Shown: piece after piece, positions 32,162-53,136 of the stretch
How the letters are laid out: every line of letters begins with the position of its first letter
How positions within the stretch are numbered: the first letter of the stretch is position 1
NCBI RefSeq assembly: GCF_012563325.1
Contig: NZ_CP046232.1
Coordinates: 390,065 to 454,064 of the forward strand
Origin: Enterobacteriaceae endosymbiont of Plateumaris braccata
GTDB lineage: Bacteria; Pseudomonadota; Gammaproteobacteria; Enterobacterales; Enterobacteriaceae
DNA length: 64,000 bases
Direction of reading: 5' to 3'
Translations under genes and position numbers: made by a program
Notes under the pieces: model-generated
What the model saw: only the letters and a program-made list of their open reading frames with translations
Database searches by the model: none
What the model was told of the DNA's origin: nothing

Positions 32162-32182
32162 TACTTCAAATTCCTATTTTTA

Positions 32183-35037: not shown

Positions 35038-37314
35038 TTATTTTAATAAAATTTGATGTTCTTTTTTTTTATCTAAAAAAATATTTTTTATTTTTTCTTT
35101 TTTATTTAAAAAAAAACCCTTATGATTTTTATTCATATAAAATTTTTTTAATTCTTTATATTTTAATTTAAGTTTGTGATTATTTAATTCAACAAAAATT
35201 ACTGATTTATTATCAATAACAAATATCCATTTTAATTTATCTTTATTTTGAATAAAATTTTTATTATCGATTAATATTAATTTATTACCTTTACCTTTAG
35301 AAAGTTTTGGTAAAATATTAATAGGAAATAATAAAAATCTTCCTATAGAAGATATAACTAATATCATATTTTTTTTATCATTAATAATTAAAGGAGGTAA
35401 AACTTCTGCTTTTTCAGAAAGTATCATTAAAGATTTACCATTTCGGTTACATGCTATTAAATCACTAAAATTACATAAAAAACCATAACCAGAACTAGAA
35501 GATAATAAAATTTCTTTATTATTTTCTTCCATTAAGATACTTTTTATAGTAGAACCATGTGGTATTTTTAGTTTACTTGATAATGGTTCACCTTGACTAC
35601 GTAAAGGTGGTAAAGAAATAGTATCTATACTATAACTACGTCCTTTTGAATCAATTAATACAATTGTCTGATTTTTTTTACCTTTAACAGAAATAGCAAA
35701 TGAATCTCCAGATTTATAATTTAAATTGATAGGATCAATAGTATGTCCTTTAGCAGATCGAATCCAACCCATTTTAGATAAAATAACAGTAATAGGTTCA
35801 TTAGATATTGATAATTCATTTTCATTTAATAATTTAGCTTCACTACATTTTTTAAATAATGAACGACGATTATTTGCATATTTATTTATAGTTAATAATA
35901 TTTCTTTTTTTAATAAAGAATTCATTTTATTTTTTGAATATAATATATTACTAATATATTTGTATTCTTTTTCTAATTTAGATTGTTCATCAATTATTTT
36001 TTTCTTTTCCATTAATGTAATAGCACGTAATTTTAAATTTAATAAAGTTTCAGTTTGTAATTCGGACATTTTAAATTTATTTTGAATTATAGAATTAGGA
36101 TTTAAATTTAAACGAATAATTTGTATTAATTCTTCTAAATTATTATGAGCTATTAATAAACCTTTTAAAATATGTAATTTTTTTATTAATTTATTTAAAT
36201 AAAAATTTAAACGTTTTTTAACTATATTTCTTCTAAATACAAGCCATTCTGATAAAATTTCTAATAAACTTTTTACAGAAGGTTTATTATTTAATCCAAT
36301 CATATTTAAGTTAATACGATAACTTTTTTCTAAATCAGTTGTAAAAAATAAATGATGTATAATTTTTTCTAATTTTAAATAATTAAAATTATTTTTAATA
36401 AATATAACAATTCTTATTGGATTTTCATAATCAGATTCATCCCTTATATCCTCAATCATTGGTAATTTTTTATTTTTTATTTGTGTGGTTATTTGTTCTA
36501 TTATACGTATAACTGAAACTTGATATGGTAATGATGTTATTATTATGGAATTATTTTTTATACTCCATAAAGATCTTAGTCTAATAGATCCTTTTCCATT
36601 TTCATATATTTTACGTAATTCTTTTTTAGGAGTAATAATTATACTTTCTGTTGGAAAATCTGGACCTTGAATAATATTTAGTATATCTTCTAATGTACTT
36701 TCAGGATAATCAATTAATTTAATAATTGCTGTTGCTACTTCTTTAATATTATGTGGTGGGATGTCTGTAACCATTCCTACAGCAATTCCTATTGCACCAT
36801 TTAAAATAATATTAGGTAAACAAGCAGGAAGTATTTTAGGTTCTAATAATGAACCATCAAAATTAGAAATATATTCAACAGTTCCTTTTTCAATTTCATT
36901 TAATAATAAATCAGAATATTCAGATAAACGAGATTCTGTATATCTCATTGCAGCAAAAGATTTAGGATCATCAGGAGAACCCCAATTTCCTTGTCCTTCT
37001 ATTAAAGGATATCTATAAGAAAAAGATTGTGCCATTAATACCATAGCTTCATAACATGCTACGTCTCCATGTGGGTGATATTTTCCAATTACATCTCCTA
37101 TAGTTCTAGCCGATTTTTTAAATTTAGAAGAGGATTTTAATCCTAATTCAGACATAGCATATATAATTCTTCTTTGAACAGGTTTTAAACCATCACCAAT
37201 ATGTGGTAATGCTCTATCTGAAATAACATAAATTGAATAATTTAAATAAGCATTTTCAGCAAATTTATATAATTCGATAGATTTTTCTTTTTTTTTCTGG
37301 ATTAGTTTAACCAT
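35038..37314 (-). CDS. parC: DNA topoisomerase IV subunit A
   Basis: ParC with ParE decatenates daughter chromosomes. The 758-residue protein (E. coli 752) aligns throughout with ParC rather than Gyr[39 protein letters not shown], catalytic tyrosine Y125 in [11 protein letters not shown], and [14 protein letters not shown] followed by LNYKSGDSF at the C-terminal domain. At the quinolone-contact position equivalent to E. coli S80 it has valine (V85), while the acidic E at the next contact is kept. It is divergent from aroF. parE is not in the window. Confidence 0.96.
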
Positions 37315-37436
37315 AAATTTTATGTATTCCTTTATTAAATTTATTTATTTTAACAATTTATCATAAATTATATTTAAATTATTTTAATCATTTTAAATAT
37401 TTATTAAATAAGTATTTATGCATTTCAATATATATA

Positions 37437-37469
37437 TGTTACGTTTGTAACAAATAACATTACTATAAT
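37437..37469 (+). promoter_or_regulatory. Putative aroF promoter with overlapping operator-like inverted repeat
   Basis: TGTTAC-gttt-GTAACA (37437-37452) is a perfect 6-bp inverted repeat, and a perfect -10 box TATAAT (37464-37469) follows. The repeat covers the place where a -35 box would be, the geometry of repressor operators. E. coli aroF is controlled by TyrR, but the TyrR consensus TGTAAA-N6-TTTACA has different spacing, so the binding protein is not identified. No good -35 is otherwise seen. Confidence 0.45.
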
Positions 37470-37488
37470 ATTTGAGGTTTACTTAATT

Positions 37489-38556
37489 ATGCAAAATAAT
37501 ATTAGTAATAATTTTACTAAAGAAGAAAATTTTATTACTCCTAAAGAATTAAAAAAAAAATTACCTATTACAGAAAAGATAAAAAAACAAATATTATTTT
37601 CACGTCAAATTATATGTAATATAATGAATAAAAAAGATTCTAGAATATTAATTATTTGTGGACCTTGTTCTATTCATAATGTTAAAGAAACCTTAGAATA
37701 TGCTAAATTATTAAAAAAAATTTCTTTAGAATTAAACAAAACTATATATATAGTTATGCGTGTTTATTTTGAAAAACCACGTACAATTATTGGATGGAAA
37801 GGATTGATTAATGATCCTTATATGAATAATTCTTATGATATTAATAAAGGATTATATATTGCACGTAAATTATTATTAAAATTAAACGAAATGGAAATTC
37901 CTTTAGCTACGGAAATATTAGATCCTAATACTCCACAATATTTAAGTGAACTTTTCAGTTGGGGTGCTATTGGAGCACGTACTACTGAATCTCAAATTCA
38001 TAGAGAATTAGCATCTTCATTAAAAATGCCATTAGGATTTAAAAATAATACAAATGGAAGTATTATAACTGCTATTAATGCTATTAAAGCTGCATCTATA
38101 TCACATAACTTTATTAGTACTAATCAAGAAGGATTAATTTGTTTAATAAAAACATTAGGAAATAAAAATTGTCATATAATTTTGCGTGGAGGAAAAAAAA
38201 CTAATTATCATGAAAAAGATATAAAAAGATGTAGTAATGATCTTATCAAAGCAGGATTACAATCTAATATAATGATAGATTGTAGTCATAATAATTCAAA
38301 TAAAAATTTTAAACGTCAAACTATTGTTGTTGATTCTATTATCTCTCAAATTGAAAAAGGTGATAATTCTATCATAGGAATAATGTTAGAAAGTTATATT
38401 AATGAGGGTAATCAATTAATGAATATAAATAATTACAATAAATTAAAATATGGAATATCAATTACAGATAGTTGTATTAGTTGGAAAACAACAGAAAAAA
38501 TTTTACATAAAATTTATAATAAACTAAATAAAATACTTCCATTGCGTTTTTTATAA
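37489..38556 (+). CDS. aroF: DAHP synthase, tyrosine-sensitive type
   Basis: DAHP synthase condenses phosphoenolpyruvate and erythrose 4-phosphate, committing carbon to the shikimate pathway. The 355 residues (E. coli AroF 356) show CGPCSIH, MRVYFEKPRT, the GWKGLINDPYM stretch, SAIGARTTESQ-like GAIGARTTESQIHRE, ILRGGK and DCSHNNSNK. Pairing with tyrA in one transcription unit, as in E. coli aroF-tyrA, supports the AroF assignment over AroG or AroH. Asn-8, which in E. coli AroF affects tyrosine feedback, is conserved. A GAGG sequence 12 bases upstream supports the start. Confidence 0.95.
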   Translation: MQNNISNNFTKEENFITPKELKKKLPITEKIKKQILFSRQIICNIMNKKDSRILIICGPCSIHNVKETLEYAKLLKKISLELNKTIYIVMRVYFEKPRTIIGWKGLINDPYMNNSYDINKGLYIARKLLLKLNEMEIPLATEILDPNTPQYLSELFSWGAIGARTTESQIHRELASSLKMPLGFKNNTNGSIITAINAIKAASISHNFISTNQEGLICLIKTLGNKNCHIILRGGKKTNYHEKDIKRCSNDLIKAGLQSNIMIDCSHNNSNKNFKRQTIVVDSIISQIEKGDNSIIGIMLESYINEGNQLMNINNYNKLKYGISITDSCISWKTTEKILHKIYNKLNKILPLRFL

Positions 38557-38574
38557 TAAGATGTAAAAATTAAT

Positions 38575-39711
38575 ATGACTAAAAAAAATATGGTAACTGA
38601 ATTAGTTACATTACGAAATAAAATCGATATATTAGATAAAAATTTAATAAACCTTTTATTAAAACGTTTAAAGTTAGTTAAAAAAATAGGAATATTAAAA
38701 AGTTATTATGGTTTTCCTATTTATATTCCAGAACGTGAAAAATTAATAATAGATTTACGAAGTAAAGAAGCTCAAAAATTAGGAGTATCTCCAAATTTAA
38801 TTAAAGATATATTATATCGTATAATGTATGAATCTTACATAAATGAAAATGAAAATGGTTTTAAAACATTAAATCCAAATTTAAAAAAAATATTAATTAT
38901 TGGTGGTAAAGGAGGTATGGGGCAATTATTTAAAAAAATGTTAATTTTATCTGGATACAAAGTTAATATTTTAGAAAAAGAAGATTGGAATAAAAATATA
39001 GATAATTTTTTCTTAAATATAAAAATGGTAATAATTAGTGTACCTATATCATCATTAGATGATGTAATAAAAAAATTACCTGTATTATCTAAAGAATGTA
39101 TATTAGTAGATGTTACTTCAATAAAAAATAAACCAATACAAAAAATGTTAAAAAAACATGATGGTCCTGTACTTGGATTACATCCAATGTTTAGTCCTGA
39201 AAATAATATTTTAGCAAAAAAATTAATAATATATTGTAATGGTCGTTATCCTGAATCTTATAATTGGTTTTTAAAACAAATAAAAATTTGGGGAGTGCAA
39301 TTAAAATGTATCGATCAAATAGAACATGATAAATATATGTCTTTTATTCAATCATTAAGATATTTTTCTATACTAGTTCATAGTTTTCATTTATCTACAG
39401 AAAATGTTAAATTAAAAGAATTGTTAAAATTTGCTTCTCCAGCATATAATGTAGATTTAATTATGACAGGTAGATTTTTTTCACAAAATCCTGATTTGTA
39501 TACTGATATTTTAATGTCATCTCATAATAATATAAAATTGATAAAAAACTATCTAAAAAAATCAAACTATATTTTATCATTAATTGAACAAAAAAATAAA
39601 ACAGAATTAATAAAATTATTTTATAAAATAAAAAATTGGTTTAAATTTTACATTAAATCTTTATACTTAAAAAGCAATAATATTTTACGACATATTAATA
39701 ATTCAAATTAA
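38575..39711 (+). CDS. tyrA: Chorismate mutase / prephenate dehydrogenase
   Basis: TyrA rearranges chorismate to prephenate and oxidises it to 4-hydroxyphenylpyruvate, the tyrosine precursor. In 378 residues (E. coli 373), the mutase domain (about 1-95) has ELVTLRNKID, KRLKLVKKIG and PIYIPERE. The dehydrogenase domain has the NAD-binding IIGGKGGMGQLFKKML, GLHPMFSPEN and SFIQSLRYF. It follows aroF by 18 bases. The phenylalanine gene pheA, which neighbours tyrA in E. coli, is missing between here and bamD. The first ATG is five codons before the MVTEL that matches the E. coli start; either could be used. Confidence 0.96.
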   Translation: MTKKNMVTELVTLRNKIDILDKNLINLLLKRLKLVKKIGILKSYYGFPIYIPEREKLIIDLRSKEAQKLGVSPNLIKDILYRIMYESYINENENGFKTLNPNLKKILIIGGKGGMGQLFKKMLILSGYKVNILEKEDWNKNIDNFFLNIKMVIISVPISSLDDVIKKLPVLSKECILVDVTSIKNKPIQKMLKKHDGPVLGLHPMFSPENNILAKKLIIYCNGRYPESYNWFLKQIKIWGVQLKCIDQIEHDKYMSFIQSLRYFSILVHSFHLSTENVKLKELLKFASPAYNVDLIMTGRFFSQNPDLYTDILMSSHNNIKLIKNYLKKSNYILSLIEQKNKTELIKLFYKIKNWFKFYIKSLYLKSNNILRHINNSN

Positions 39712-39730
39712 TATATGTTAATTTCAACTT

Positions 39731-39768
39731 TTAGAAACTTAATATTAATTATAATATTAAGTTTCTAA
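39731..39768. terminator. Bidirectional terminator hairpin between tyrA and bamD
   Basis: TTAGAAACTTAATATTA (39731-39747), a four-base loop, then its exact reverse complement (39752-39768): a 17-bp perfect stem between two converging genes. A/T runs flank it on both sides. The stem holds only two G-C pairs but is long, which is a common form in AT-rich genomes. Confidence 0.8.
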
Positions 39769-39788
39769 ATATTAAAAATACATTTTAA

Positions 39789-40511
39789 TTAAATTATATT
39801 AATAATTTTATATGTTTTATTCATTATCATTAATGCTAAAATACTTTCTGATGTATAAGGATAATTTTTAATTAACATTTCACATCTTTTTATAACTGAT
39901 ATATACATTTCTTTATTTAAATAAAATTGAATAACACTTAATTCATATAATGCTAAACGTTTTTTTAAAAATCTTAATCTTTTTTTAGCAAAAGGTATAT
40001 AAATACTATTAGGATAATTTTTAATTAATAATTTTAAGTCATATACAGCTTTATTAGCATAAAAAGGATTACAATCACTTCTATTTATTCTAAAAAAATA
40101 TTGAATTTTATTACTATCTAATGATATTTCTGATAAACTTTTTATATAAAGTATATAATCAGTATATTTTGATATAGGATATATTCTAATAAATTCATTA
40201 AATAAATTTATAACAGAAACAAATTGTTTATTTAAATAATATAAATATATTAAATTAACTTTAATTTCTTTAGTATATTTATTATAAGGGTATAATTTGT
40301 CAAGTTGTTCAAATTCTAACATTGATTTTGCATAATTTTTTTTAAATAAATCATTAGTTGCTTCTAAATATTTTTCTTTAATCAAAATATTCGTTAATAT
40401 AATTTTTTTTCTATTATTAATAGATGTACATTGAGAACAATTAGTTACTATTATTAATAATAAAATTATTAATGTTTTACAAAAAATATTTTTTATTATA
40501 AATTTTTTCAT
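39789..40511 (-). CDS. bamD: Outer membrane assembly lipoprotein BamD
   Basis: BamD is the essential accessory lipoprotein of the BAM complex that inserts beta-barrel proteins. The 240-residue protein (E. coli 245) has a lipoprotein signal with cysteine C25 in the lipobox-like IVTNC, then TPR helices with YPYNKYTKEIKVNLIYLYY and the family segment RSDCNPFYANKAVYDLKLL. The retention of BamD and BamE implies an outer membrane with barrel proteins. It lies next to rluD divergently, as in E. coli. Confidence 0.94.
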   Translation of the reverse strand: MKKFIIKNIFCKTLIILLLIIVTNCSQCTSINNRKKIILTNILIKEKYLEATNDLFKKNYAKSMLEFEQLDKLYPYNKYTKEIKVNLIYLYYLNKQFVSVINLFNEFIRIYPISKYTDYILYIKSLSEISLDSNKIQYFFRINRSDCNPFYANKAVYDLKLLIKNYPNSIYIPFAKKRLRFLKKRLALYELSVIQFYLNKEMYISVIKRCEMLIKNYPYTSESILALMIMNKTYKIINII

Positions 40512-40597
40512 GTTTTAGTCTTTAAAAATTAAATTTCTATTTAAAAATAATATTTTTTATTATATTATTCTATTTATTACTAATAAAATTAAATTTT

Positions 40598-41547
40598 ATG
40601 AATATAATAAAATTAATTAAAACTGTTGATAAATCTAATACTGGAATAAGATTAGATATATTTCTTACTAAAAAATTACTGCAATTTTCAAGATCTCAAA
40701 TAAAAAATTGGATTATTAATAATAATATAAAAATTAATAATATTATTATAAATAAACCTAAAAAAAAATTCTTACAGGAGACAAAATATACATTGATATT
40801 AAAATTTTACAAGAAAGAATATTATGGAAATCACAAAATATCCCATTAAATATAATTTATAATGATAATTATTTATTAATAATAAATAAATCTTCAAATT
40901 TAGTAGTACATCCAGGTAATGGAAATTTAGATAAAACATTATTTAATGCTTTATTATATTATTATCCCTTTCTTAGAGATTTACCAAGAGCAGGTATTAT
41001 TCATAGATTAGATAAAAATACAACCGGGTTAATAATTATAGCAAAAACAATGTTATCATATATTAATTTAAAAATAGCTTTAAAAAAACATAAAATTATA
41101 AGAGAATATGAAGCAATAGTAAATGGTATTGTTAAATATAATGATATTATTAACTATCCAATAAAAAAATTCTATAATAAAAAAAATATACGTATGAATG
41201 TAACTAATGAAGGTAAAGAAGCAATAACACAATATTTTTTAAAACGTATATTTAAAATGCATAGTCATTTAAAAATTAAATTACATACTGGACGTACACA
41301 TCAAATTAGAGTTCATTTAGAATATATTAATCATAGTATTGTTGGTGATCCTATTTATAATAAATCTCAAATTAATATTATAACAATTAATAATAAAAAA
41401 TATTTAATTAATAAAATTTTAAAAAGACAAGCATTACATGCATGTCGTTTAGAATTTATGCACCCTATATATAATTATCCATTAAAATTTAACTCATCAT
41501 TACCTAATGATATTAAACATTTAATTTCTATTTTAGAAAAAATATAA
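40598..41547 (+). pseudogene. rluD: 23S rRNA pseudouridine synthase RluD, one frameshift at a poly(A) tract
   Basis: RluD makes the pseudouridines of 23S helix 69. The N-terminal S4-like part (DKSNTGIRLDIFLTKKL, SRSQIKNWI) is in one frame from 40598. The rest is in the next frame, from LTGDKIYIDIK at 40771 to the stop at 41547, and contains the catalytic HRLDKNTTG and LHTGRTHQIRVHL. The shift maps to A9 at 40760-40768, and one more A restores a 316-residue protein (E. coli 326). No other disruption or stop is present. Slippage by RNA polymerase or ribosome may rescue it; a sequencing error is also possible. Confidence 0.9.
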
Positions 41548-41701
41548 TAAATATTTAAATTTAAAATTATTATTATTTTATAAATACATTATAATTTTAA
41601 TTAAATGAGATATAAAATATTAAATTTATATAAAAATAATTTTATTAATTTAATACTTTAGTTTATTATATTTATAATTACAAATTTTATATTAAAAAAA
41701 T

Positions 41702-42364
41702 ATGAATATTAAAAAATATATATTATTTTTCAGTGGTTTGTTTTTATTAACTTTTTCTAATTTTTGTTTATCATCTACAAAATATATACAAGATGTACAT
41801 TATGAATTAATAAAAAAATCTCCAAAAATAATATTTTATCCAAAAACTCCAATTATAGAGTTTTTTTCTTTTTTATGTCCTCATTGTTATGATTTTTATA
41901 ATATGACTCATAAAAAAAATTTATCAGTTCAAAATTTTTTAAAACATTTACAAATTACAAAATATCATATAGATAGTATGGGAGATAAAAAATTAGCTAA
42001 ATTAGCTACTTATAATTGGAGTATAGCTATAGCATTACATGTTGAAAATAAAGTTATTCTAGCAATATTTCAAGGTATACAATCTCATAAAATTTATAAT
42101 TATAAAACTATGAAAAAAATATTTATTAAAGCAGCTAATATAAATAATAATATTTATGATGCCGCATGGAATAGTTCTCTAGTTAAAGCATTAAATAAAA
42201 AACAAATTAAATTAGCTACAGCATGGAATATTACATCAATACCATTTATTGTAATTAATAATAAATATCATATTAAATTAGATTCATTAGATTTTACATC
42301 TACAAATCTTTTTCTTAGCGACTATATTAGTCTTATAAAAGTTCTTTTAAAAAAGAAAAATTAA
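41702..42364 (+). CDS. dsbA: Thiol:disulfide interchange protein DsbA
   Basis: DsbA introduces disulfide bonds into periplasmic proteins. The 220-residue precursor (E. coli 208) has a hydrophobic signal peptide of roughly 24 residues, the active site FFSFLCPHCYDF (C59, C62) and a cis-proline in TSIPFIVIN. AAWNSSLVKAL in the helical insert matches E. coli DsbA closely. The gene precedes polA, as in E. coli, where two genes lie between. dsbB is not in the window. Confidence 0.95.
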   Translation: MNIKKYILFFSGLFLLTFSNFCLSSTKYIQDVHYELIKKSPKIIFYPKTPIIEFFSFLCPHCYDFYNMTHKKNLSVQNFLKHLQITKYHIDSMGDKKLAKLATYNWSIAIALHVENKVILAIFQGIQSHKIYNYKTMKKIFIKAANINNNIYDAAWNSSLVKALNKKQIKLATAWNITSIPFIVINNKYHIKLDSLDFTSTNLFLSDYISLIKVLLKKKN

Positions 42365-42409
42365 ATAATATCAATTATTATAAAATATTTTTTATAAAAT
42401 ATATAATAT

Positions 42410-43291
42410 ATGAAAAAAAAATTAATATTAATAGACGGATCATTTTATTTATATAGAGCTTATTATGCTCTACCTAATTTAATGAATAGTAAAGGATTTC
42501 CTACAGGAGCAATATACGGTTTTCTAAATATGATGAATAAAATTATTAATAATAATTTACATAATTATGTTATTATTATTTTTGATTCTAAAGGTAAATC
42601 TTTTAGAAAAAAAATCTTTGATAATTATAAATCAAAACGTATTAAAATGCCAAAAAATTTAGTTATTCAAATAAAACCTCTATATAAAATTATAAAATCT
42701 ATGGGATATCAGATAATATCTATGAAAAATATTGAAGCTGATGATATTATCGGTACTATCGCTATAAAGGCTGTTAAAAATAATTATTTTGTTTATATTT
42801 TTAGTATAGATAAAGATATAGCTCAATTAGTCTCTAGTAATATTAATTTAATTAATCCTGTTAATAATTTCGTTTCAGGTCCCAATGAAATATATAATAA
42901 ATATGGTGTAATGCCAAATATGATAAGTGATTTATTGGCATTACAAGGAGACCCTGTAGATAATATACCTGGGGTACAAGGTATTGGAAAAAAAATAAGT
43001 GCTTATCTTATAAATAATTTAGGAAATTTAAAATTTATTTATAAAAATATAAATTTTATAAATAATTTAAATATTAAAAGAATACAATATATAAAAAAAT
43101 GTTTATTGAATAATAAAAAATTAGCTTTTATTTCACATAAATTAACAAAAATTAAGACAAATATTGATATTAATATAGATTTAAATAATTTAAATTTATA
43201 TTATAAACCAAATAAAAAATACTTATTATATTTATATAAAAAATATGAATTTCAAAAATTAATTAATAATTTTAGAAAAGATAAATATTAA
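42410..43291 (+). CDS. polA: 5'-3' exonuclease domain of DNA polymerase I (naturally short PolA)
   Basis: The 293 residues correspond to the N-terminal 5' nuclease of E. coli Pol I (928 residues), which removes RNA primers and flaps. Seen are LIDGSFYLYRAYYALP, IIFDSKGKSFRKKIFDNYKSKR, the metal-binding EADDIIGT, and LQGDPVDNIPGVQGIGKK. The 3'-5' exonuclease and polymerase domains are missing. There is no remnant, since engB ends six bases further. Such exo-only PolA is known from other reduced symbionts such as Buchnera. Gap filling must rely on another polymerase. Confidence 0.95.
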   Translation: MKKKLILIDGSFYLYRAYYALPNLMNSKGFPTGAIYGFLNMMNKIINNNLHNYVIIIFDSKGKSFRKKIFDNYKSKRIKMPKNLVIQIKPLYKIIKSMGYQIISMKNIEADDIIGTIAIKAVKNNYFVYIFSIDKDIAQLVSSNINLINPVNNFVSGPNEIYNKYGVMPNMISDLLALQGDPVDNIPGVQGIGKKISAYLINNLGNLKFIYKNINFINNLNIKRIQYIKKCLLNNKKLAFISHKLTKIKTNIDINIDLNNLNLYYKPNKKYLLYLYKKYEFQKLINNFRKDKY

Positions 43292-43297
43292 TTTTAT

Positions 43298-43909
43298 TTA
43301 ATTATTAATTAAAAAATTAATTGATTTTTTTATATTTTGTAAATTTTCTTTTTTTAATGATGAAAAAGTTAAAATTTTTATTTTTAAATTAAATTTATAT
43401 TTTAAATTTAAATTTATTAAAAATTTTTTTATTATATATATCTTTTTTTTAACTAAAATATTAGATAATTTATCAGATTTATTTAGAATTATTAAAACAG
43501 GTTTTTTTTTATTAATAAAAATTTTTAATAAAATTAAATCTATTTTTCTAAATAAAAAACGAATATCAATTATAAGAATTATACCTTTTAAAGAATTTCT
43601 AATTAAAATATATTTTTGAAAAAAATCATAAGTATTAAACATTGATTGTTTTAAAAATTTACTATATCCATAACCTGGAAAATCTAAAAAACGAATTTTT
43701 TGATTATTTTTAAATATATTAATTCTATATGTACAACCTGGTGTTTTACTAGTTCGAGCAATTTTTTGATTAAATAATAAATTAATTATTGTTGATTTTC
43801 CAACATTAGTATATCCAATAAAAGCAATTTCATTACCATAATCATATGTTAATTCACTTATACTTAAAATACTATTAATAAAATTAATAGATTGAAAATT
43901 AATTATCAT
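43298..43909 (-). CDS. engB: Ribosome biogenesis GTPase EngB/YihA
   Basis: EngB is an essential GTPase acting in 50S subunit assembly. The start at MIINFQSINF gives 203 residues (E. coli 210). An upstream in-frame ATG 13 codons earlier adds nothing conserved. GTPase motifs are GYTNVGKST (G1), TPGCTYRIN (G2), DFPGYGYSK (G3), LNKSDKL (G4) and TFSSLKK (G5). It follows polA tail to tail, the E. coli polA-yihA neighbourhood. Confidence 0.94.
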   Translation of the reverse strand: MIINFQSINFINSILSISELTYDYGNEIAFIGYTNVGKSTIINLLFNQKIARTSKTPGCTYRINIFKNNQKIRFLDFPGYGYSKFLKQSMFNTYDFFQKYILIRNSLKGIILIIDIRFLFRKIDLILLKIFINKKKPVLIILNKSDKLSNILVKKKIYIIKKFLINLNLKYKFNLKIKILTFSSLKKENLQNIKKSINFLINN

Positions 43910-44003
43910 AATTGATATTTTTAAATAAAATTTATAATTAATATACACTATATGTTTAATATTATGTTAAAAATTTTTAATAAATAATTAATAAGGAAAA
44001 TTT

Positions 44004-45833
44004 ATGAAAAAAATACGAAACATAGCAATTGTTGCACATGTTGATCATGGTAAAACAACTTTAATAGATAAATTATTAGAACAATCAGATAATTATCAAA
44101 ATAAAAAAAATGGTTATTATAAAGAAATAAAAGAACGTTTTATGGATACTAATGATCTAGAAAAAGAAAAAGGTATTACTATTTTTTCAAAAAATACATC
44201 TATATTATGGAATAAATATCAAATTAATATAATTGATACACCCGGTCATGCTGATTTTAGTGCTGAAGTAGAACGTATATTATCCATGGTTGATTCTGTT
44301 TTATTAGTAGTAGATGCTACTGAAGGACCTATGCCACAAACTAGATTTGTTACTCAAAAAGCATTTAATCATAATTTAAATCCTATTATTGTAATTAATA
44401 AAATAGATAGAAAAAATATACGTCCCGATTGGGTTATTAACCAAATATTTGATTTATTTGTTAATTTAAATGCATCTGATAAACAACTTGATTTTCCTAT
44501 TGTATATACTTCTGGTATTAAAGGGATATCTGGTTATGAAATTAACCAAATAAGTAATAATATGAATGCATTATATGAATCAATTATTCGTTATGTTCCT
44601 AAACCAAAAATGGATATTAATAAACCTTTTCAAATGCAAATTTCTCAAATAGAATATAATAATTATATAGGAAATATAGCAATTGGATTAATTAAAAGAG
44701 GTAAAGTTAAAATTAATCAATTGGTTTTAATAACTAATCAAAAAGGAAAAATGATAAAATCTAAAATATTACATTTAATTTATAATATAGGATTACGTCA
44801 AATACATTCTAATAATGCTGAAGCTGGAGATATAGTTGGTGTTGCTGGTAATGGTTTTGAAAATATTAAAATTTTTGACACAATATGCGATATTAATAAT
44901 AATAATCCATTACCAGCGTTAATAATAGAAAAACCTACAATAAATATGTTTATTCATGTTAATAATTCTCCATTTGCTGGTAAGGAAGGTAAATATATAA
45001 CATCTAGTAAAATTTTTTATAGATTAAAACAAGAATGTTTATATGATATTGCACTTAGTGTAAAAGAAACTAATAATAATAATATTTTTTGTATTTCAGG
45101 AAGAGGTGAACTACATTTAGTAATTTTAATAGAAAATATGAGAAGAGAAGGATTTGAATTAGCTGTTTCTAAACCGAAAGTGATTAATCATATTATAAAT
45201 GGTATTTTAAAAGAACCATTTGAAAAATTAATTTTAAATTTTGAAAATAATAAAAAAGGAAATATAATTCAGTTAATTAGTAACAGAAAAGCTATTATAA
45301 AAAATATAACATATGATATAAATAATAGAATTACAATAGAATCTATTATTTCAAGTAGAGGATTAATTGGATTTAGAAATGAATTTTTAAATGCAACTTC
45401 AGGAACAGGAATTATAAATTCTTTTTTTAGTCATTATGATAAAGTTTTATCTGAATCAATAGGACAAAGAAGAAACGGTGTTCTTATATCTAAGAATCAA
45501 GGAAATGCTGTAGGATTTTCTTTATTTCATTTACAATCTAGAGGTAAATTATTTATTAAACATAGTGAAAAAATTTATGAAGGACAAATTATAGGTATTC
45601 ATAATAAAAATAATGATTTAACTGTAAATTGTTTGACAGGTAAAAAATTAACAAATATGAGAGCTTCTGGAAATGATGAAGCCATTAATTTAATTCCTAT
45701 TAAAACAATGCTCTTAGAAGAAGCAATAACATTTATAAATGATGACGAATTAGTTGAAATCACTCCTATATCAATTAGAATTAGAAAAAAATATTTAAAA
45801 CAAAATCAAAGAAAAATCTCTAATAAAAACTAA
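44004..45833 (+). CDS. typA: Ribosome-associated GTPase TypA/BipA
   Basis: TypA is an EF-G-like GTPase involved in 50S assembly and stress translation. The 609 residues (E. coli 607) begin with a preceding AAGGA site and show G1 [10 protein letters not shown]2 [10 protein letters not shown]3 DTPGHADF and G4 NKIDR. The C-terminal [32 protein letters not shown] and [15 protein letters not shown] segments are conserved. It stands in the same relative order as E. coli (polA-engB-...-typA). Confidence 0.97.
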
Positions 45834-45894
45834 TAAAATTTAAATTAACAATTTTATTGGAATTTATATTATATATATTTTATATGATTAATAA

Positions 45895-46252
45895 TGGAGC
45901 TGGGGGGATTTGAACCCCCGTCCAAAACTATTACACTATAGGTATTTACATGTTTAGTATCATCTATTTTTATTCAACGAAATGAACTGATGAACAAAAT
46001 TACAATATCGTATAGTCTATTTTTTAATATATAGTTTTAGACAAACTATATACGATCTCTTTTATATATAACCCATTAACTTTTACCAAAGAGAAAAATA
46101 ATAAGTAACAGGGCTCTTACAGTATTTTAAGCTGCTAAAGCGTAATTTTTGTTTTTTGCAACTAAATTTATACGTTTTTTTACAAGGCCAACCGTACAAC
46201 CTTGACATGATTCCTGAAGTTTCATAATTCTGTCGAATCCAAAATCAGCCCC
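45895..46252 (-). ncRNA. ssrA: Transfer-messenger RNA (tmRNA)
   Basis: On the minus strand the RNA begins GGGGCTGATTTTGGATTCGA (46252 downward) and ends with the T-arm and acceptor GGTTCAAATCC..CAGCTCCA. The tag frame begins with resume codon GCA and encodes AKNKNYALAA followed by TAA, near 46161-46129. The protease-recognised ALAA end matches E. coli (ANDENYALAA), but the acidic D and E are replaced by lysine and asparagine. CCA is not encoded. The length is about 358 bases. It rescues stalled ribosomes together with SmpB, which is encoded just upstream. Confidence 0.95.
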
Positions 46253-46258
46253 TTATTT

Positions 46259-46780
46259 TTAAATTTTAATATTTTTTTTCATTATACGCATTTTGTCTAT
46301 ATTCCATTCTTTATTTTTTAATAAATGTCGTTTATCATATTGATTTTTACCTTTTGCAACAGCTATCTTTAATTTACACCAAGATTTTTTCCAATATAAA
46401 CTTATAACAACAATGGTATAACCTTTATAATTTAAATAATTTTTTAATAAAAAAATTTCTTTTTTATTTAGTAATAATTCTCTTTTTCTTAGAACATCAT
46501 ATTTAATATGATTACAAATAGTATTTAAAGGATTTATATTAGCATTTAATAAAAATGCTTTATTATTATTATGTAATATACTAACATAACTATTATTAAT
46601 AGTAATTTTATTAAATCTTAGTGATTTAACTTCCCATCCTTGTAATATAATTCCTGCTTCTATTTCTTTTTTAATAAAAAAATCATGATATATTTTTTTA
46701 TTTAAAATAATATATTTTTTTTTTTCATTAGATATATAATATTTTATATTAATTATAATGTAATAGCTATTATTTATCAT
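46259..46780 (-). CDS. smpB: tmRNA-binding protein SmpB
   Basis: SmpB binds tmRNA and brings it to stalled ribosomes. The 173 residues contain EAGIILQGWEVKSLR, NSYVSILHNNNKAFLLNANI, the SLYWKKSWCKLKIAVAKGK core and a KEWNIDKMRIMKKN tail, matching E. coli SmpB (160). The first 15 or so residues are extra and low in conservation, so the real start may be a later, non-ATG codon. The stop codon is only six bases from the 5' end of tmRNA. Confidence 0.94.
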   Translation of the reverse strand: MINNSYYIIINIKYYISNEKKKYIILNKKIYHDFFIKKEIEAGIILQGWEVKSLRFNKITINNSYVSILHNNNKAFLLNANINPLNTICNHIKYDVLRKRELLLNKKEIFLLKNYLNYKGYTIVVISLYWKKSWCKLKIAVAKGKNQYDKRHLLKNKEWNIDKMRIMKKNIKI

Positions 46781-46809
46781 AAAATATGATAAATATATAT
46801 TATTTATAA

Positions 46810-47142
46810 TTAATTTTTAATTAAATTTATTTTTTTTATATTAATTAATTTATTTTTATTATTAAATATTAAAATAATAGTATTTTGTTCTAATTTACTG
46901 TTTGATTTTTTAATAAAAATATAATACCAAATAGTATTATTTTTTTTATAATTAATAATATATGGATAACCTAATATATCAATAATTTGTTTTTTAGACA
47001 TATTGTTTTTAATTTTATTAGTTATATTAATATTTAAAAAATTTCCTTGATAAGTATTTTCTTGATATATTACTCTTTTTAAGATTGTACAACTAGAGAA
47101 CATTAAAATAAAAGGTAATATGAAAATTATTTTATAATTCAT
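46810..47142 (-). CDS. bamE: Outer membrane assembly lipoprotein BamE
   Basis: BamE is the small lipoprotein of the BAM complex. The 110 residues (E. coli 113) start with a signal peptide ending in a lipobox-like MFSSC (C18). The core YQGNFLN, MSKKQIIDILGYPYI and WYYIFI matches the SmpA/OmlA domain. The neighbourhood grpE-bamE-smpB-ssrA is the E. coli order with nadK, recN, ratA and ratB lost. Confidence 0.93.
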   Translation of the reverse strand: MNYKIIFILPFILMFSSCTILKRVIYQENTYQGNFLNINITNKIKNNMSKKQIIDILGYPYIINYKKNNTIWYYIFIKKSNSKLEQNTIILIFNNKNKLINIKKINLIKN

Positions 47143-47304
47143 ACAATTATCTCTGTAAATATTTATTTTTAATAATTTTAATAAAAATTAATATTTTATT
47201 GTAGATGCTTGATATTTAAAACAATCAATTTTTGATTAATATTTTTAAAAAATTATAGATTATATTTGATATATCTCAAAATAATTTAATAAAAAAAATT
47301 TTTT

Positions 47305-47333
47305 TTGACAATATTTATAAAAAATTAATTACT
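47305..47333 (+). promoter_or_regulatory. Possible grpE promoter (-35 only is strong)
   Basis: A perfect TTGACA (47305-47310) stands out in an almost pure A+T stretch 80 bases before grpE. At 17 bases lies ATTACT, a weak -10. No heat-shock sigma-32 -10 of the CCCCAT type is present, so heat regulation of grpE cannot be supported from sequence. Confidence 0.3.
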
Positions 47334-47389
47334 ATTAATATAACATTAATTCAATTATATATTTATAAATAATATAAATGGAGTAAAAA

Positions 47390-48025
47390 ATGATTAAAAA
47401 AAAACCATTAGATAATTCTAAAATAAATAATATTGAAGAAAAAGAAGATAAAGTTGAAAAAAATCAAAATGAAATAATTAAAAATACAAAAAAAAATATT
47501 GTAGAAAATGAAAATATTATAGAAAATATTCAAGAAAAAAATAGTTTATATCAACTTCGTATTTTTGAATTAGAAAACAAAATAAAAAATTATGAATATT
47601 CTCTAAGAGACGTTAAACTCCGTTCACAAGCTGAAATAGATAATATTAAACGTAGATCTCAATTAGATATAGAAAAAATTTATAAATTTTCATTAGAAAA
47701 ATTTATTAATGAATTACTACCTGTTATTGATAGTTTAGAAAAAGCTTCTGAAATTAGTTTTAAAAATGATACTCTTGAAAAATCTATAATTGAAGGTATT
47801 CAATTAACTTTAAAATCATTATTAAATACAATAAGAAAATTCGGAGTAAATATTATAAATAAAGTAAATATTCCTTTTAATCCATCTGAACATCAAGCTA
47901 TGTCTATACTAGAATCTAGTAAAATAAAAGATAATTATATAATAAAAGTTATGCAAAAAGGTTATACTTTAAATAAAAGATTATTAAGACCAGCTATGGT
48001 AATTATTGCTAAAGAAAAAAAATAA
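47390..48025 (+). CDS. grpE: Nucleotide exchange factor GrpE
   Basis: GrpE releases ADP from the chaperone DnaK. The 211-residue protein (E. coli 197) has a charged, Lys/Glu/Asn-rich N-terminus (about 1-55), a long coiled-coil helix with RSQAEIDNIKRR, and the C-terminal beta domain with NPSEHQAMSI and YTLNKRLLRPAMVIIAK. The N-terminal part is longer than in E. coli but unordered in the family. It is divergent from bamE. A hairpin follows the stop codon. Confidence 0.96.
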   Translation: MIKKKPLDNSKINNIEEKEDKVEKNQNEIIKNTKKNIVENENIIENIQEKNSLYQLRIFELENKIKNYEYSLRDVKLRSQAEIDNIKRRSQLDIEKIYKFSLEKFINELLPVIDSLEKASEISFKNDTLEKSIIEGIQLTLKSLLNTIRKFGVNIINKVNIPFNPSEHQAMSILESSKIKDNYIIKVMQKGYTLNKRLLRPAMVIIAKEKK

Positions 48026-48051
48026 TACTATTAAATTTATAAATATTTTTT

Positions 48052-48096
48052 ATATGCCCATAATAAAATATTATTTTGAAATTATTTTGGGCATAT
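48052..48096 (+). terminator. Hairpin after grpE
   Basis: ATATGCCCA (48052-48060) pairs with TGGGCATAT (48088-48096), and more pairs continue inward past one mismatch. The CCC/GGG block is unusual in this background. No long T run follows, so it may be a weak terminator or an mRNA-stabilising structure between grpE and rpmB. Confidence 0.6.
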
Positions 48097-48161
48097 GAAA
48101 TTTTGATTAAAATTTTAAAAAATTGTTTTATATATTAAAATTTTTTATAAAAGGATTATAT

Positions 48162-48380
48162 ATGGCTAAAATATGTCAAATAACAGGTAAAAAAGTTATG
48201 AAAGGAAATAATCGTTCACACGCAATGAATGCAACTAAAAGAAAATTTTTACCTAATATACATTATCATAAATTTTGGATAAGAAGCAAAAAAAAATTTA
48301 TTACTTTACGTATATCTACAAAAGGAATGCGTCTTATAGATAAACAAGGAATTGAAAAAACAATACTAAATTTATATTAA
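48162..48380 (+). CDS. rpmB: 50S ribosomal protein L28
   Basis: L28 is a small protein of the large ribosomal subunit. The start at [11 protein letters not shown] gives 72 residues (E. coli 78) and is supported by AAGGA six bases upstream; a 13-codon longer frame is not conserved. [17 protein letters not shown] and [15 protein letters not shown] are nearly identical to E. coli. The last residues of the E. coli protein are missing. It forms the conserved rpmB-rpmG pair. Confidence 0.97.
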
Positions 48381-48412
48381 ATTTATATTAAAATATAATT
48401 AGGATTACACTT

Positions 48413-48580
48413 ATGGCTAAAAAATCACGAAATATAATTAAATTAATTTCATCAGCTGATACAGGACATTTTTATACAACTACAAAAAACAAAAAATCCA
48501 ATTCTAAGAAATTAAAACTTAAAAAATTTGATCCTGTTATAAGAAAACATATAATATATAAAGAAAGTAAAATTAAATAA
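48413..48580 (+). CDS. rpmG: 50S ribosomal protein L33
   Basis: This short gene encodes 55 residues, the same length as E. coli L33. The sequence reads [20 protein letters not shown] then [28 protein letters not shown], close to identical with E. coli in the second half. The zinc-ligand cysteines of some L33 forms are absent, as in E. coli. An AGGA element lies eight bases upstream. It follows rpmB by 32 bases. Confidence 0.97.
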
Positions 48581-48590
48581 ATTTCTATTA

Positions 48591-48634
48591 TTAATCAATA
48601 ATGTTAATATTTAATAATAAACATTATTGATTAA
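48591..48634. terminator. Bidirectional terminator hairpin between rpmG and rpmE
   Basis: TTAATCAATAATGTT (48591-48605) and its exact reverse complement (48620-48634) form a 15-bp perfect stem with a 14-base loop between converging rpmG and rpmE. T-rich sequence follows on both strands. Confidence 0.75.
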
Positions 48635-48656
48635 TTAATATTTATATAAAATAATA

Positions 48657-48878
48657 TTAACCTAGTATTTTAGAATGTTTAAATTTTTTTTTAAATCTTT
48701 CTACTCGTCCTTTAGTATCTATTATTCTTTGTTTACCGGTATAGAAAGGATGACATTTATTACATACATCTAAATTTAATTTTTTTTTATTTATTAATGT
48801 TGATTTAGTATATATTATATTACCACAAGAACATTTTGCTATAATATCATTATATTTGGGATGAGTATTTTGTTTCAT
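48657..48878 (-). CDS. rpmE: 50S ribosomal protein L31
   Basis: L31 bridges the two ribosomal subunits. The 73-residue protein (E. coli 70) begins [12 protein letters not shown] and keeps the zinc cysteines in KCSCGN and [15 protein letters not shown], so this is the zinc-containing form. It is divergent from priA, the same neighbour as in E. coli. Confidence 0.97.
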
Positions 48879-49001
48879 TTATAATAACCACTTAACATTA
48901 AAACATAATTTTATTATTTATTATCTAGTTTTATTGTATATAAATATTATTTTTGATACAACAATAATATTTTTATTTTTTATAAAAAATTTTTATATAT
49001 T

Positions 49002-51185
49002 ATGAAAATAATTCAAATAGTACTTAATAATGAAGTATTTGATAAAATATTTGATTATTTATTACCAGATTTTATGAATGTAGAATTAGGAAGTAGAGTA
49101 ATAATTTCTATTAAAAATAAAGAATATATTGGAATTGTTATTAATATTAAAAATAGTACAAATATTCCTAAATCTAAATTAAAATATTTGAAAGAAATTT
49201 TAGATAATGAGTCGCTTTTTAGTCCTGAAATATGGAAATTTGCTAATAAAATATCTACATATTATCAATATTCTATAGGAGCAATACTTTTTCAAATACT
49301 TCCTATTTATTTAAGAGAAAAAATATATTCTAAATATATTTTAGATAATTTATATTGGGTATTAAATAAAAAATTCTTGAAAAATAATTTTAAAAAAATA
49401 AAATCATTAAAACAAAAAACAGCATTAAGTATACTCAAAAAAATTAAAATAAATTATGAGAAAATTTCTTTTTATGGTTTAACAAATAGTATAATGATAT
49501 CTTTACAAAAAAAAAATTTATGTTTTATAGAAAAAAAATATAATTTATTACCTATTTTTAAAAAACAAAACTATTTAAATAATTCATCAATTTTTATAAA
49601 ATATAATAATATTATAAATAAATTTTTTAACAAAATAAATATTTTCGTAACTTGGATAATATCAGGAAGTTTAGTTTTTCTTGAAAACATTAATTTATAT
49701 TTAAATATAATTAATATTATATTATATAAAAAAAAACAGATACTAATTTTAGTACCTAAAATATATGATTCTATATATATTTATAAGTTTTTAAAAAAAA
49801 ATTTAAATGTTTCTATATATTTACTAAATTCTAAAACTTCTAATAAAGAAAATTTTTTTATTTGGAAAAATATAAGAAATGGTACAATACCAATAATTAT
49901 TGGTACACATCATTCTATATTAACATCTTTTTTAAATTTAGGTTTAATTATTGTAAGTGAAGAACATGATATTACATATAAACAATTAAATAAATGTAAA
50001 TATAATATAAGAAATATTGCTATATTAAGAGCTAAAATAGAAAATATTCCAATAATATTAGATTCTGCTACTCCAAGTTTAGAAACATTAAATAATATTA
50101 ATATTGGTAAATATACATTTTTATCTGATAAACATCTAAATACATTATATAATAAATATTATTATTTTAATTTAATTAAAATAAATAAAAAAAAATTTAC
50201 AGATAGTATCTCTGATATGTTATTAAAAGTAATTAAAAGACATTTAGATTATAAAAATAATATATTATTATGTATTAATAACTTAGGACGTATAAATACT
50301 ATTTTATGTAATGAATGTTATTATATTCCTAAATGTTCTATTTGTAATAATAACTATATTTTTTATATAAAAAAAAAAAGATTATGTTGTTCTTTCTGTA
50401 AAAATACAATTTTAATTGTAAAATATTGTTTAAATTGTAAATCTATACATATTTCTATTATTGAAGTAGAAATAGCTCAAATAATACGATTTTTAAATAA
50501 AAAATTTCCCACTACTGTAATAGTATATATGAATGAATATAATATTTTCAAATATAAAGATAAATTAACTAATAAATCAGTTATAATTATAAATACATCT
50601 TTTTTTATCCAAAAAAAATATGATATATTAAGAACTACTCTTATAGCATTCATAAATGTAGATTACATTTTTTTTACAAAAAATTTTCGTTATACAGAAT
50701 ATTTTTTTCAATATTTTTTTAGAATATTAAAAAATAATTTAGAAATGCATAAAAAAAAAGAAATAATAATAGAAACTAATTTCACTCAACATGATTTTTT
50801 TAATAAATTAATTAATTATCCAAAATATTATTATTTAGCAAAATTTCTTTTAAAAGAAAGAAAACTAATGTTATTACCTCCTTTTAGTAATCACGTAATA
50901 TTAATAGCTGAATCATATAATATTGATTATATATTAATATTTCTTAATACATTAAAAGATATATTTATACAAAAATATATTAATGATCAAGATTTTTTTA
51001 TTATAGGTCCTATTAATTTATTAGAAAATAAACAAATAATATTTTTTCGTAAACAAATAATTTTACAACATTTATCAAAAAATAAGTTATATTTTATTAT
51101 AAAAAATATTACTCATGTAGCAAAAAAAATTATTTATTTTAATAAAATTAAATTTTCAATTGATATTGATCCTATAGAATATTAA
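49002..51185 (+). CDS. priA: Primosomal protein PriA with eroded helicase motifs
   Basis: PriA restarts stalled replication by recognising forks and loading DnaB. The 727-residue frame is intact (E. coli 732). The N-terminal DNA-binding domain is recognisable (about 1-105), as are SATPSLETL (355-363), eight zinc cysteines (436/439, 445/448, 463/466, 476/479) and the C-terminal LMLLPPFSNHVIL. However, Walker A GVTGSGKT is replaced by GSLVFLEN near 222-229. Walker B DEEH is SEEH (319-322), motif V lacks its KG, and motif VI QVAGRAGR is absent near 573. The ATPase and helicase therefore look dead while the scaffold stays. Confidence 0.93.
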   Translation: MKIIQIVLNNEVFDKIFDYLLPDFMNVELGSRVIISIKNKEYIGIVINIKNSTNIPKSKLKYLKEILDNESLFSPEIWKFANKISTYYQYSIGAILFQILPIYLREKIYSKYILDNLYWVLNKKFLKNNFKKIKSLKQKTALSILKKIKINYEKISFYGLTNSIMISLQKKNLCFIEKKYNLLPIFKKQNYLNNSSIFIKYNNIINKFFNKINIFVTWIISGSLVFLENINLYLNIINIILYKKKQILILVPKIYDSIYIYKFLKKNLNVSIYLLNSKTSNKENFFIWKNIRNGTIPIIIGTHHSILTSFLNLGLIIVSEEHDITYKQLNKCKYNIRNIAILRAKIENIPIILDSATPSLETLNNINIGKYTFLSDKHLNTLYNKYYYFNLIKINKKKFTDSISDMLLKVIKRHLDYKNNILLCINNLGRINTILCNECYYIPKCSICNNNYIFYIKKKRLCCSFCKNTILIVKYCLNCKSIHISIIEVEIAQIIRFLNKKFPTTVIVYMNEYNIFKYKDKLTNKSVIIINTSFFIQKKYDILRTTLIAFINVDYIFFTKNFRYTEYFFQYFFRILKNNLEMHKKKEIIIETNFTQHDFFNKLINYPKYYYLAKFLLKERKLMLLPPFSNHVILIAESYNIDYILIFLNTLKDIFIQKYINDQDFFIIGPINLLENKQIIFFRKQIILQHLSKNKLYFIIKNITHVAKKIIYFNKIKFSIDIDPIEY

Positions 51186-51246: not shown

Positions 51247-53136
51247 ATGACAATATGTTCAAATAGTTTTGATGTAATAGTTATAGGTGGGGGTCATTCT
51301 GGAACAGAAGCTGCAATAGCTAGTTCTCAAATGGGTAAACATACTCTTTTGATAACAAATAATATTGATACAATAGGCCAAATGTCATGTAATCCTTCTA
51401 TTGGAGGATTAGGAAAAGGACATTTAGTTAAAGAAATTGATGCTTTAAATGGAATAATGGGAACTACTATTGATAATTCAGGTATACATTTTAAAATTTT
51501 AAATAAAAGTAAAGGATCTGCTGTAAGAGCAACGAGAGTTCAAGCAGATAGAAAATTATATCAAAGAAATATTAAACAAAAATTAGAAAATCAAAATAAT
51601 TTATTAATCTTTCAACAAGAAGTAAAAAAAATAATAATTAAAAATTATAAAATAATAGGATTGATAACTAAAAATAATGATACTTTTTATTCAAAATGCA
51701 TTATTTTAACCACTGGAACTTTTTTAAATGGCAAAATTTTTATAGGAGTTAATCATCAATTTATGGGTGGAAGATTAAATGATTTTTCTTCTGTAGAATT
51801 ATTTAATTATTTAAAAGAATTGCCTATAAAAGAAGGAAGATTAAAAACTGGTACACCACCACGTATTGATAAAAGAAGTATTAATTTTAAAATTTTAGAA
51901 ATTCAAAACGGTGATTATCCTATACCTTTTTTTTCTTTTATTAAAAATAAAAAATTAAATTTAAAACAATTGCCTTGTTATATTACTCATACTAATCAAA
52001 ATACTCATAAAATTATATTAGATAATATTATGTATAGTCCAATTTATAAGGGAATAATTAAAAGTAATGGTCCAAGATATTGTCCTTCTATTGAAGATAA
52101 AGTAATAAAATTTTCTAAAAAGGATTCTCATCAAATTTTTTTAGAACCTGAAGGTTTATATAGTAATGAAATTTATCCTAATGGTATTTCTACAAGTTTA
52201 CCATTTAATGTTCAATTGTCAATTATTAGGTCTATTAAAGGATTAGAAAAAGCACATATTACACGTCCTGGATATGCTGTTGAATATAGTTTTTATGATC
52301 CTAGAGGTTTAAAACCTACTATGGAAAGTAAATTTATTAAAGGATTATTTTTAGCTGGACAAATTAACGGAACCACTGGTTATGAAGAAGCTGCTGCACA
52401 AGGATTATTAGCTGGAATAAATGCATCTCTTTTAATAGATGATAAAAATGGTTGGTATCCCCTAAGAAATGAAGCATATTTAGGTGTTTTAGTAGATGAT
52501 TTATGTACTTTAGGCACAAAAGAACCATATCGTATGTTTACTTCTAGAGCAGAATATAGACTAATTTTAAGAGAAAATAATGCTGATATAAGACTAACTG
52601 AAATAGGATACAAATTAGGATTAGTAGATAATAATCGTTGGAAAATTTTTAATCAAAAATTAGAAAATATAGAAAAAGAACGTAATAGATTAAAAAATAT
52701 TTATATTAAACCAAATAGTTCAACAAGTTTAAAATTTAGCAAACTCACAAATAATATTTTAACAAAAGAGATAAATGGAATTAATTTACTTAAAAGACCA
52801 GAAATAAATTATAATAATTTAATAAAATTAGATATATTTTGTCCTGGAATTGAAGATATAGAAATAATAAATTATCTTGAATCTGAATTAAAATATGAAG
52901 GATATATATTACAACAACAAAAAAACATTAATAAACAAAAAAAAAATGAAAATATTATAATTCCTTCACATATAGAATTTAAAAATATTAAAGGTTTATC
53001 TAATGAAGCAATTGATAAATTTCAATATTATAAACCTTATAGTTTAGGACAAGCATCTAGAATACCAGGTATTACTCATGCTAATATTTCTATTCTTTTA
53101 ATATATTTATTAAAATATAAATATATTAAACATTAA
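51247..53136 (+). CDS. mnmG: tRNA uridine 5-carboxymethylaminomethyl modification enzyme MnmG
   Basis: MnmG (GidA) with MnmE modifies the wobble uridine of several tRNAs, using FAD. The 629 residues equal the E. coli length. The FAD-binding [19 protein letters not shown] near the start, [35 protein letters not shown] and [15 protein letters not shown] are well preserved. In E. coli, oriC lies upstream and rsmG downstream. Here priA is 61 bases upstream and atpB follows directly. Confidence 0.97.

Follow-up and report, generated by a model that had tools for sequence, protein, structure and literature searches.

Reed-beetle symbionts retain, under strong selection, a PriA replication restart protein with a worn-away motor

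The replication restart protein PriA of the Enterobacteriaceae endosymbiont of the reed beetle Plateumaris braccata is encoded on the forward strand at 49002..51185 of the stretch analysed here (the window, 64 kb of a genome of 517.5 kb). The frame opens with ATG, has zero internal stops and specifies 727 amino acids, and the residues that power the helicase have been lost from it. Its identity as PriA is supported by the profile TIGR00595 (264.2 bits against a cut-off of 230.35) and by the 3' DNA-binding domain PF17764 (81.2 against 22.7); the C-terminal domain PF18074 falls just below its cut-off (26.5 against 26.9) and the PriA model NF004065 remains far from its own (462 against 858). An original prediction, made from the letters of this DNA, had called both terminal domains recognisable. 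Among the candidates scored, the nearest named matches are the PriA proteins from the Enterobacteriaceae endosymbionts of four Plateumaris species, followed by those of Donacia, Macroplea and Neohaemonia. The profile search returned one priA match only in the genome, and thus no second copy.

The eroded motor motifs

Motifs were read by aligning the window protein with E. coli PriA. Walker A (residues 222-229, 49665..49688) is GSLVFLEN in place of GVTGSGKT, with asparagine at the lysine position, and Walker B (residues 317-323, 49950..49970) is IVSEEHD in place of VIDEEHD, so that DEEH has become SEEH while the second glutamate is retained. Motif V (residues 530-545, 50589..50636; INTSFFIQKKYDILRT) reads INTSFFIQKK, QK standing for lysine-glycine, and in motif VI (residues 573-581, 50718..50744) FRILKNNLE stands for TQVAGRAGR, that is RILKNNLE for QVAGRAGR. 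All four losses had been described in the original prediction, and the alignment bears them out. The protein thus lacks the residues in both Walker motifs and in motif VI that define an active PriA helicase, an SF2 ATPase, and carries the degenerate Walker A and B motifs by which a PriA pseudohelicase of the Deinococcus radiodurans type is recognised in sequence.

The same reading was extended to 24 reed-beetle symbiont genomes, the window's own included, which constitute the genus sample. Neither the P-loop pattern [AG]x4GK[ST] nor the motif VI pattern QxxGRxGR occurs anywhere in any of the 24 proteins, so the window PriA has no intact P-loop pattern elsewhere. In the alignment no genome retains the Walker A glycine (G229) or either of the motif VI arginines; the Walker A threonine is gone from 23 and the Walker B aspartate from 22. 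Other losses are less uniform, a lysine still standing at the Walker A position in 13/24 and in motif V in 19/24. This remaining lysine, together with the second Walker B glutamate found in all 24, could be taken to mean that nucleotide is still bound in a changed site and that the motif loss is only apparent. Such a cryptic ATPase is very improbable given the asparagine of the window protein, the loss of the P-loop glycine and of both motif VI arginines throughout the genus, and the lack of a P-loop pattern elsewhere. The loss of the motor in the window PriA is confirmed.

Retained domains and selection across the genus

What surrounds the lost motifs has been kept. A full priA frame without internal stops and all eight zinc cysteines are found in 24/24 genus genomes, as anticipated for the window's 727-codon frame and its zinc site, and the cysteines also recur in 31/31 aligned PriA. 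The second glutamate of Walker B is likewise invariant in the genus, as are, in E. coli numbering, Y327, D560, F568 and E572. Structure prediction of the motorless protein, a check proposed in the original prediction, gives the PriA fold along the full chain.

Selection was measured as the ratio of nonsynonymous to synonymous substitution rates (dN/dS, omega), with fits run from several starts. For priA across the genus omega is 0.111, and twice the log-likelihood difference (2dlnL) from omega = 1 is 7175. Every domain is under purifying selection. The 3' DNA-binding domain (residues 1-105, 49002..49316) has an omega of 0.097 and retains the F and D found at F16 and D17 of E. coli; the winged-helix domain (residues ~106-195, 49317..49586) is the most relaxed part at 0.30, and alignment gaps indicate that it is shortened in Donacia symbionts. 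Helicase lobe 1 (residues ~196-410, 49587..50231), where ATPase motifs are lost and the fold is retained, and the zinc-binding cysteine-rich region (Cys 436, 439, 445, 448, 463, 466, 476 and 479; 50307..50438) both stand at 0.090, and the C-terminal domain (residues ~623-727, 50868..51182) at 0.10. The eroded motifs themselves are as constrained as the rest of priA, or more so. With all 24 genomes sharing it and omega at about 0.11, the pattern goes far beyond chance.

Neutral decay, in which the gene is leaving the genome and has been caught before stop codons build up, has some circumstantial appeal, because gene erosion is usual in reductive genomes, because omega of priA is about three times that of the control gene, and because among other symbionts four motorless relatives have split priA frames and some lack any priA match. 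The control is the first part (about 475-484 codons) of mnmG, the downstream neighbour of priA (51247..53136, forward strand). The 24 full frames, the value of omega and the undiminished constraint on the eroded motifs nevertheless contradict it already, as does a simple neutral simulation which predicts ~41 stop codons per lineage since the window species split from its nearest relative; on these grounds the explanation is rejected, and its probability is minimal. The earlier argument that random decay would not spare both frame and zinc site is accordingly upheld. Of the findings named in advance as damaging to the original prediction, an intact P-loop elsewhere, an omega near 1 and a second priA, none was encountered.

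An element between motifs V and VI (NVDYIFFTKNFRYTEYF; residues 552-568, 50655..50705), in which D554 and E566 do not vary across either of two alignments, of 31 and 57 PriA, survives in motorless PriA despite the erosion of its neighbours. The winged-helix domain is largely absent from the 611-612 aa PriA of ~300 kb genomes.

Replication partners and the recurrence of motor loss

In E. coli, restart proceeds from PriA through PriB, DnaT and DnaC, and the three partners that identify this pathway were not found in the genus. Profile searches of the 24 genomes returned no DnaT and no PriC, and nothing above the cut-off of the PriB model, whose 23 weak matches lie in frames of 172-242 aa, presumably SSB. 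The IstB/DnaC model, on which E. coli DnaC scores 58.1 bits, gave no match over its cut-off in any of the 24. Its weak AAA matches were considered as DnaA and not borne out: a frame of 445 aa is HslU by reading and adjoins hslV, and frames of ~781 and ~425 aa are presumably Lon and ClpX, judged by length and order. Equivalog models of DnaC and DnaT found no match in the window's own genome (G000) or in the relative G006. The same models, run on 65 small genomes, matched DnaC strongly in 26 (24 over the cut-off) and DnaT in 16 (5 over the cut-off), and therefore work in symbionts. The replicative helicase gene dnaB is over its cut-off in all 24 genus genomes; a 458-aa frame with a weak DnaB-model match is Ffh by reading.

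The initiator gene dnaA could not be found either. In G000, outside the window (L218:444-1917, contig 1 near 490.5 kb), the order is rpmH, a gap of 224 bp, dnaN and gyrB, without dnaA; in G113, a Buchnera genome, that gene lies between dnaN and rpmH (65% identity, tblastn). The gap measures 144-249 bp in all 20 genus genomes in which both genes were found, G000 included, and no DnaA match occurs at any of the 21 dnaN loci sampled from the genus (in G007, the 21st, rpmH was not found; three of the 24 genomes lie outside this sample). Searches for DnaA, DnaC and DnaT likewise gave no match in stretches of G000, G006 and G004 that total 532 kb. The queries were E. coli proteins in tblastn (E <=1e-3) and, in phmmer (E <=1), DnaA from both E. 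coli and G113 together with the DnaC and DnaT of E. coli. These stretches follow the common gene order and overlap at the three changes of genome, so that genes peculiar to G000 and lost from a relative would escape, and they exclude the 5.3 kb second contig of G000. Located within them were recA (G000), dnaG (G004), a Rep/UvrD-like helicase (G006), dnaN and gyrB; recD, recB and recC, named by reading, are also retained in the 517 kb genome, near the window (L209:5643-14248). Loss of dnaA is described for many insect symbionts in the accessible part of PMC3620526, which includes one that loses dnaC and dnaT yet keeps priA and priB.

The Rep/UvrD-like protein of G006, which shares 35% identity with E. 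coli Rep across 650 aa, raises the prospect that the PriA motor became dispensable as another helicase clears the lagging strand in trans, and a PriC/Rep restart pathway does exist in E. coli (available text of PMC9713433). The coupling protein PriC was not found, however, and the idea accounts for the loss of the motor and not for the present role of PriA. We consider it improbable as an explanation in its own right; it would rather supplement the best one.

Two observations concern the origin. Cumulative GC skew has a weak minimum at ~37.6 kb within positions 30000-49000 of the window, 11 kb from priA and mnmG, too weak to be used as support. In E. coli oriC adjoins mnmG, and replication may still begin near the old origin without DnaA.

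Motor loss is not confined to reed-beetle symbionts. In a family-wide draw of 198 genomes the PriA model matched 189, 154 of them over the cut-off; 48 small, weak or odd genomes were searched again, and motif reading was confined to these. Two with priA fragments (G051, G117), one whose match lies in another gene by frame (G207) and one with none (G082) were dropped, which left 44 genomes in which motifs were read, and G074, which reads N at the P-loop region, was omitted from the resulting table of 43. Under a fixed rule (lost when both the P-loop and the motif VI pattern are missing, part lost when a single one of them is), 18 genomes have an intact motor, 3 have lost part of it and 22 have lost it. 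All 22 motor-lost genomes have four CxxC pairs (pieces pooled), and only G038, which is part lost, has three. Among the candidates scored, both patterns are missing from the named PriA of Buchnera, Lightella, Providencia siddallii and Profftia, those of P. siddallii and Profftia still displaying GTKGSGKI and GSPGSGKK respectively; the first three resemble the reed-beetle protein in having lost the motor motifs and kept the four zinc pairs. A PriA tree built without the motif columns implies 4-5 changes of motor state under the fixed rule and 2-3 with classes assigned by eye, although long branches make these counts rough (PriA trees leave out G124 and G074, and the final tree also the free-living rows L127 and L146). 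In one genus (g48) the passage is visible, the motor being lost in G070 and half-recognisable in G203. DnaC and DnaT are retained in twelve motorless genomes, including Buchnera (G113); neither was matched in the two reed-beetle genomes to which these models were applied.

Further proteins came to light in this survey. An apparent loss of zinc cysteines in P0198, P0201 and P0203 proved to be mostly an alignment artefact, since four CxxC pairs are present in both P0198 and P0203; P0201, from a 310 kb genome, has only three, perhaps a later stage of erosion. P0204-P0208 are distant PriA-like proteins with four CxxC pairs, of which four (not P0207) are without the P-loop pattern and all five without motif VI, and these are possibly further pseudohelicases. 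The priA genes of L193 (G138) and L191 (G124) have in-frame TGA, and their reading under table 4 equals P0158 (Candidatus Providencia siddallii) and P0203; symbionts G138 and G124 may therefore read TGA as tryptophan.

A candidate clamp for recruiting DnaB

We propose that the window protein is a PriA pseudohelicase which has lost ATP binding and DNA unwinding and is kept as an ATP-independent fork clamp recruiting DnaB, a reading that the motifs, the predicted fold and the selection make probable, with ample room for doubt. The 3'-binding domain, the helicase scaffold, the cysteine-rich region and the C-terminal domain would jointly recognise a fork or a D-loop, the clamp would enclose the single-stranded DNA of the lagging strand, and DnaB would be recruited, probably through direct contact, as PriB, DnaT, PriC and DnaC were not found. 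D-loops could be supplied by RecA and RecBCD, which remain. For E. coli, the accessible parts of PMC10175261 and PMC13377028 describe how the cysteine-rich region pivots on fork binding, a pore shuts around the DNA of the lagging strand and docking sites become available to PriB and DnaT.

The closest worked case is the PriA of D. radiodurans (Lopper et al. 2015, PMC4504706), which, according to the available text, has no ATPase and no unwinding activity, retains fork binding and binds DnaB directly. It resembles the reed-beetle protein in its degenerate Walker A and B motifs and in a genome without clear priB or dnaT, and for this reason we infer, by analogy, that DNA binding, contact with DnaB and a role in restart may extend to reed-beetle PriA. 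The two belong to different phyla, so that the loss in reed-beetle symbionts is independent, and they differ in degree: in Deinococcus-Thermus the Walker A lysine has become arginine in a box that is still recognisable, whereas here erosion has reached both Walker motifs as well as V and VI. Fork and DnaB binding have been shown for the D. radiodurans protein, while reed-beetle PriA is known from sequence, in a setting where DnaA, DnaC, DnaT, PriB and PriC were not found. Divergent PriA-like proteins also occur in Actinobacteria, again a different phylum. Their helicase motifs are probably degenerate.

E. coli PriA, as wild type or as the ATPase-dead K230A (priA300), shares the zinc cysteines and the fold over the whole chain, which for the symbiont is predicted. 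It differs in its intact motor and its partners PriB, DnaT and DnaC, and the ATPase-dead allele is severely defective without PriB. The original prediction had leaned on an ATPase-dead PriA (K230R) as its precedent, and the argument is not supported in that form: ATPase-dead PriA supports DnaB reloading in vitro with PriB, DnaT and DnaC present (accessible part of PMC10175261), whereas searches of the genus found neither these three nor PriC. Its further suggestion, that selection keeps only fork recognition and DnaB loading, fits the lost motor and the retained fold, zinc site and frame, but needs a different, partner-poor mechanism, with DnaB loading as a supposition. Taken as a whole, the earlier interpretation is partly supported.

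The most serious competitor of the recruiting clamp is that PriA is retained for binding forks or D-loops alone, for instance in guarding 3' ends, barring polymerase or nuclease or interacting with SSB, without bringing in DnaB. The DNA-binding domains are constrained, no known partner for loading DnaB was found, and a contact between PriA and DnaB is unreported for E. coli PriA in the available text of PMC4504706. Yet the cysteine-rich region, in E. coli the dock of PriB whose movement opens the DnaT site, is as constrained as the DNA-binding domain, the zinc cysteines are invariant, and DnaB has to be loaded somehow when no other loader was found; we therefore regard this alternative as rather unlikely, though it deserves to be taken seriously.

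A number of observations weigh against the recruiting clamp itself. The E. coli assay of ATPase-dead PriA includes the three partners that were not found in the genus, and without PriB such a protein is severely defective in vivo (available text of PMC9713433); a symbiont with neither motor nor, as far as found, PriB breaks the E. coli rule on ATPase-dead priA combined with priB deletion. Constraint on priA is weaker than on mnmG by the threefold difference in omega, and the split frames of four motorless relatives, with the symbionts of the 198-genome draw that have no priA match, mean that priA is dispensable in some symbionts. Seven small genomes without PriB over the cut-off have an intact motor, including G056 and G194 (L157 and L161; 300-400 kb), in which DnaT and DnaC are likewise unmatched; loss of partners does not, then, force loss of the motor. 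In raw counts under the fixed rule, the motor is lost in 1/14 genomes with PriB and 21/29 without (p 6e-5), or in 3/14 and 22/29 when part counts as lost (p 0.001), and classes by eye give 0/14 and 21/29 (p 5.6e-6), the difference being that the fixed rule counts G157 and G203 as lost and G038 as part; phylogenetic pairing, however, leaves 0-2 informative pairs, all in the expected direction, with a median p of 0.5 in one analysis and 1 in another. The raw association is not significant after this pairing, and we do not claim that loss of PriB opened the way to loss of the motor. The presence of DnaT and of DnaC also accompanies motor loss in raw counts, because the Buchnera-like group retains both. 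At the position of E. coli D438, through which PriB is bound, 14/14 small genomes with PriB and 4/29 without have an acidic residue, as expected if PriB docking had been released, although the genomes are not independent and the window's own E438 is among the four.

A bolder extension of the recruiting clamp is tentative, and we think it doubtful at present: motorless PriA might be the sole remaining bringer of DnaB where DnaA, DnaC, DnaT, PriB and PriC were not found, serving both restart and the initiation of the chromosome at D-loops made by RecA and RecBCD, or at R-loops, through direct recruitment independent of ATP. Stable DNA replication in E. coli offers a parallel for replication that starts without DnaA (accessible part of PMC7174701). 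If true, one protein would replace origin initiator, primosome and helicase loader.

PriA pseudohelicases are already known, and the loss described here is genus-wide and recurrent in other symbionts, not unique. Within the literature searched, from which subscription papers were mostly outside coverage, no report of motorless PriA in insect symbionts was found, and a word search of the main texts of two papers on reed-beetle symbiont genomes and transcriptomes (PMC7289800, PMC12508126) yielded no evidence of a priA transcript or protein: neither text speaks of priA, dnaA, replication or recombination. Within this coverage, the novel points are that symbionts have lost the motor repeatedly, that the motorless form shows evidence of selection and that its setting is one without known DnaB loaders. 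Since helicase activity is not strictly needed in E. coli, according to the available text of PMC4504706, the purpose of the PriA motor is unsettled, and reed-beetle symbionts retain, under strong selection, a restart protein from which that motor has worn away. The motor has been lost naturally several times with the remainder of the protein under selection, in one case in a genus where the textbook DnaB loaders were not found, and this provides a natural test of how PriA acts without it. If PriA alone recruits DnaB, the path by which a fork acquires its replicative helicase would be very short, and it would give a testable answer to how replication starts or restarts in symbionts that lack DnaA.
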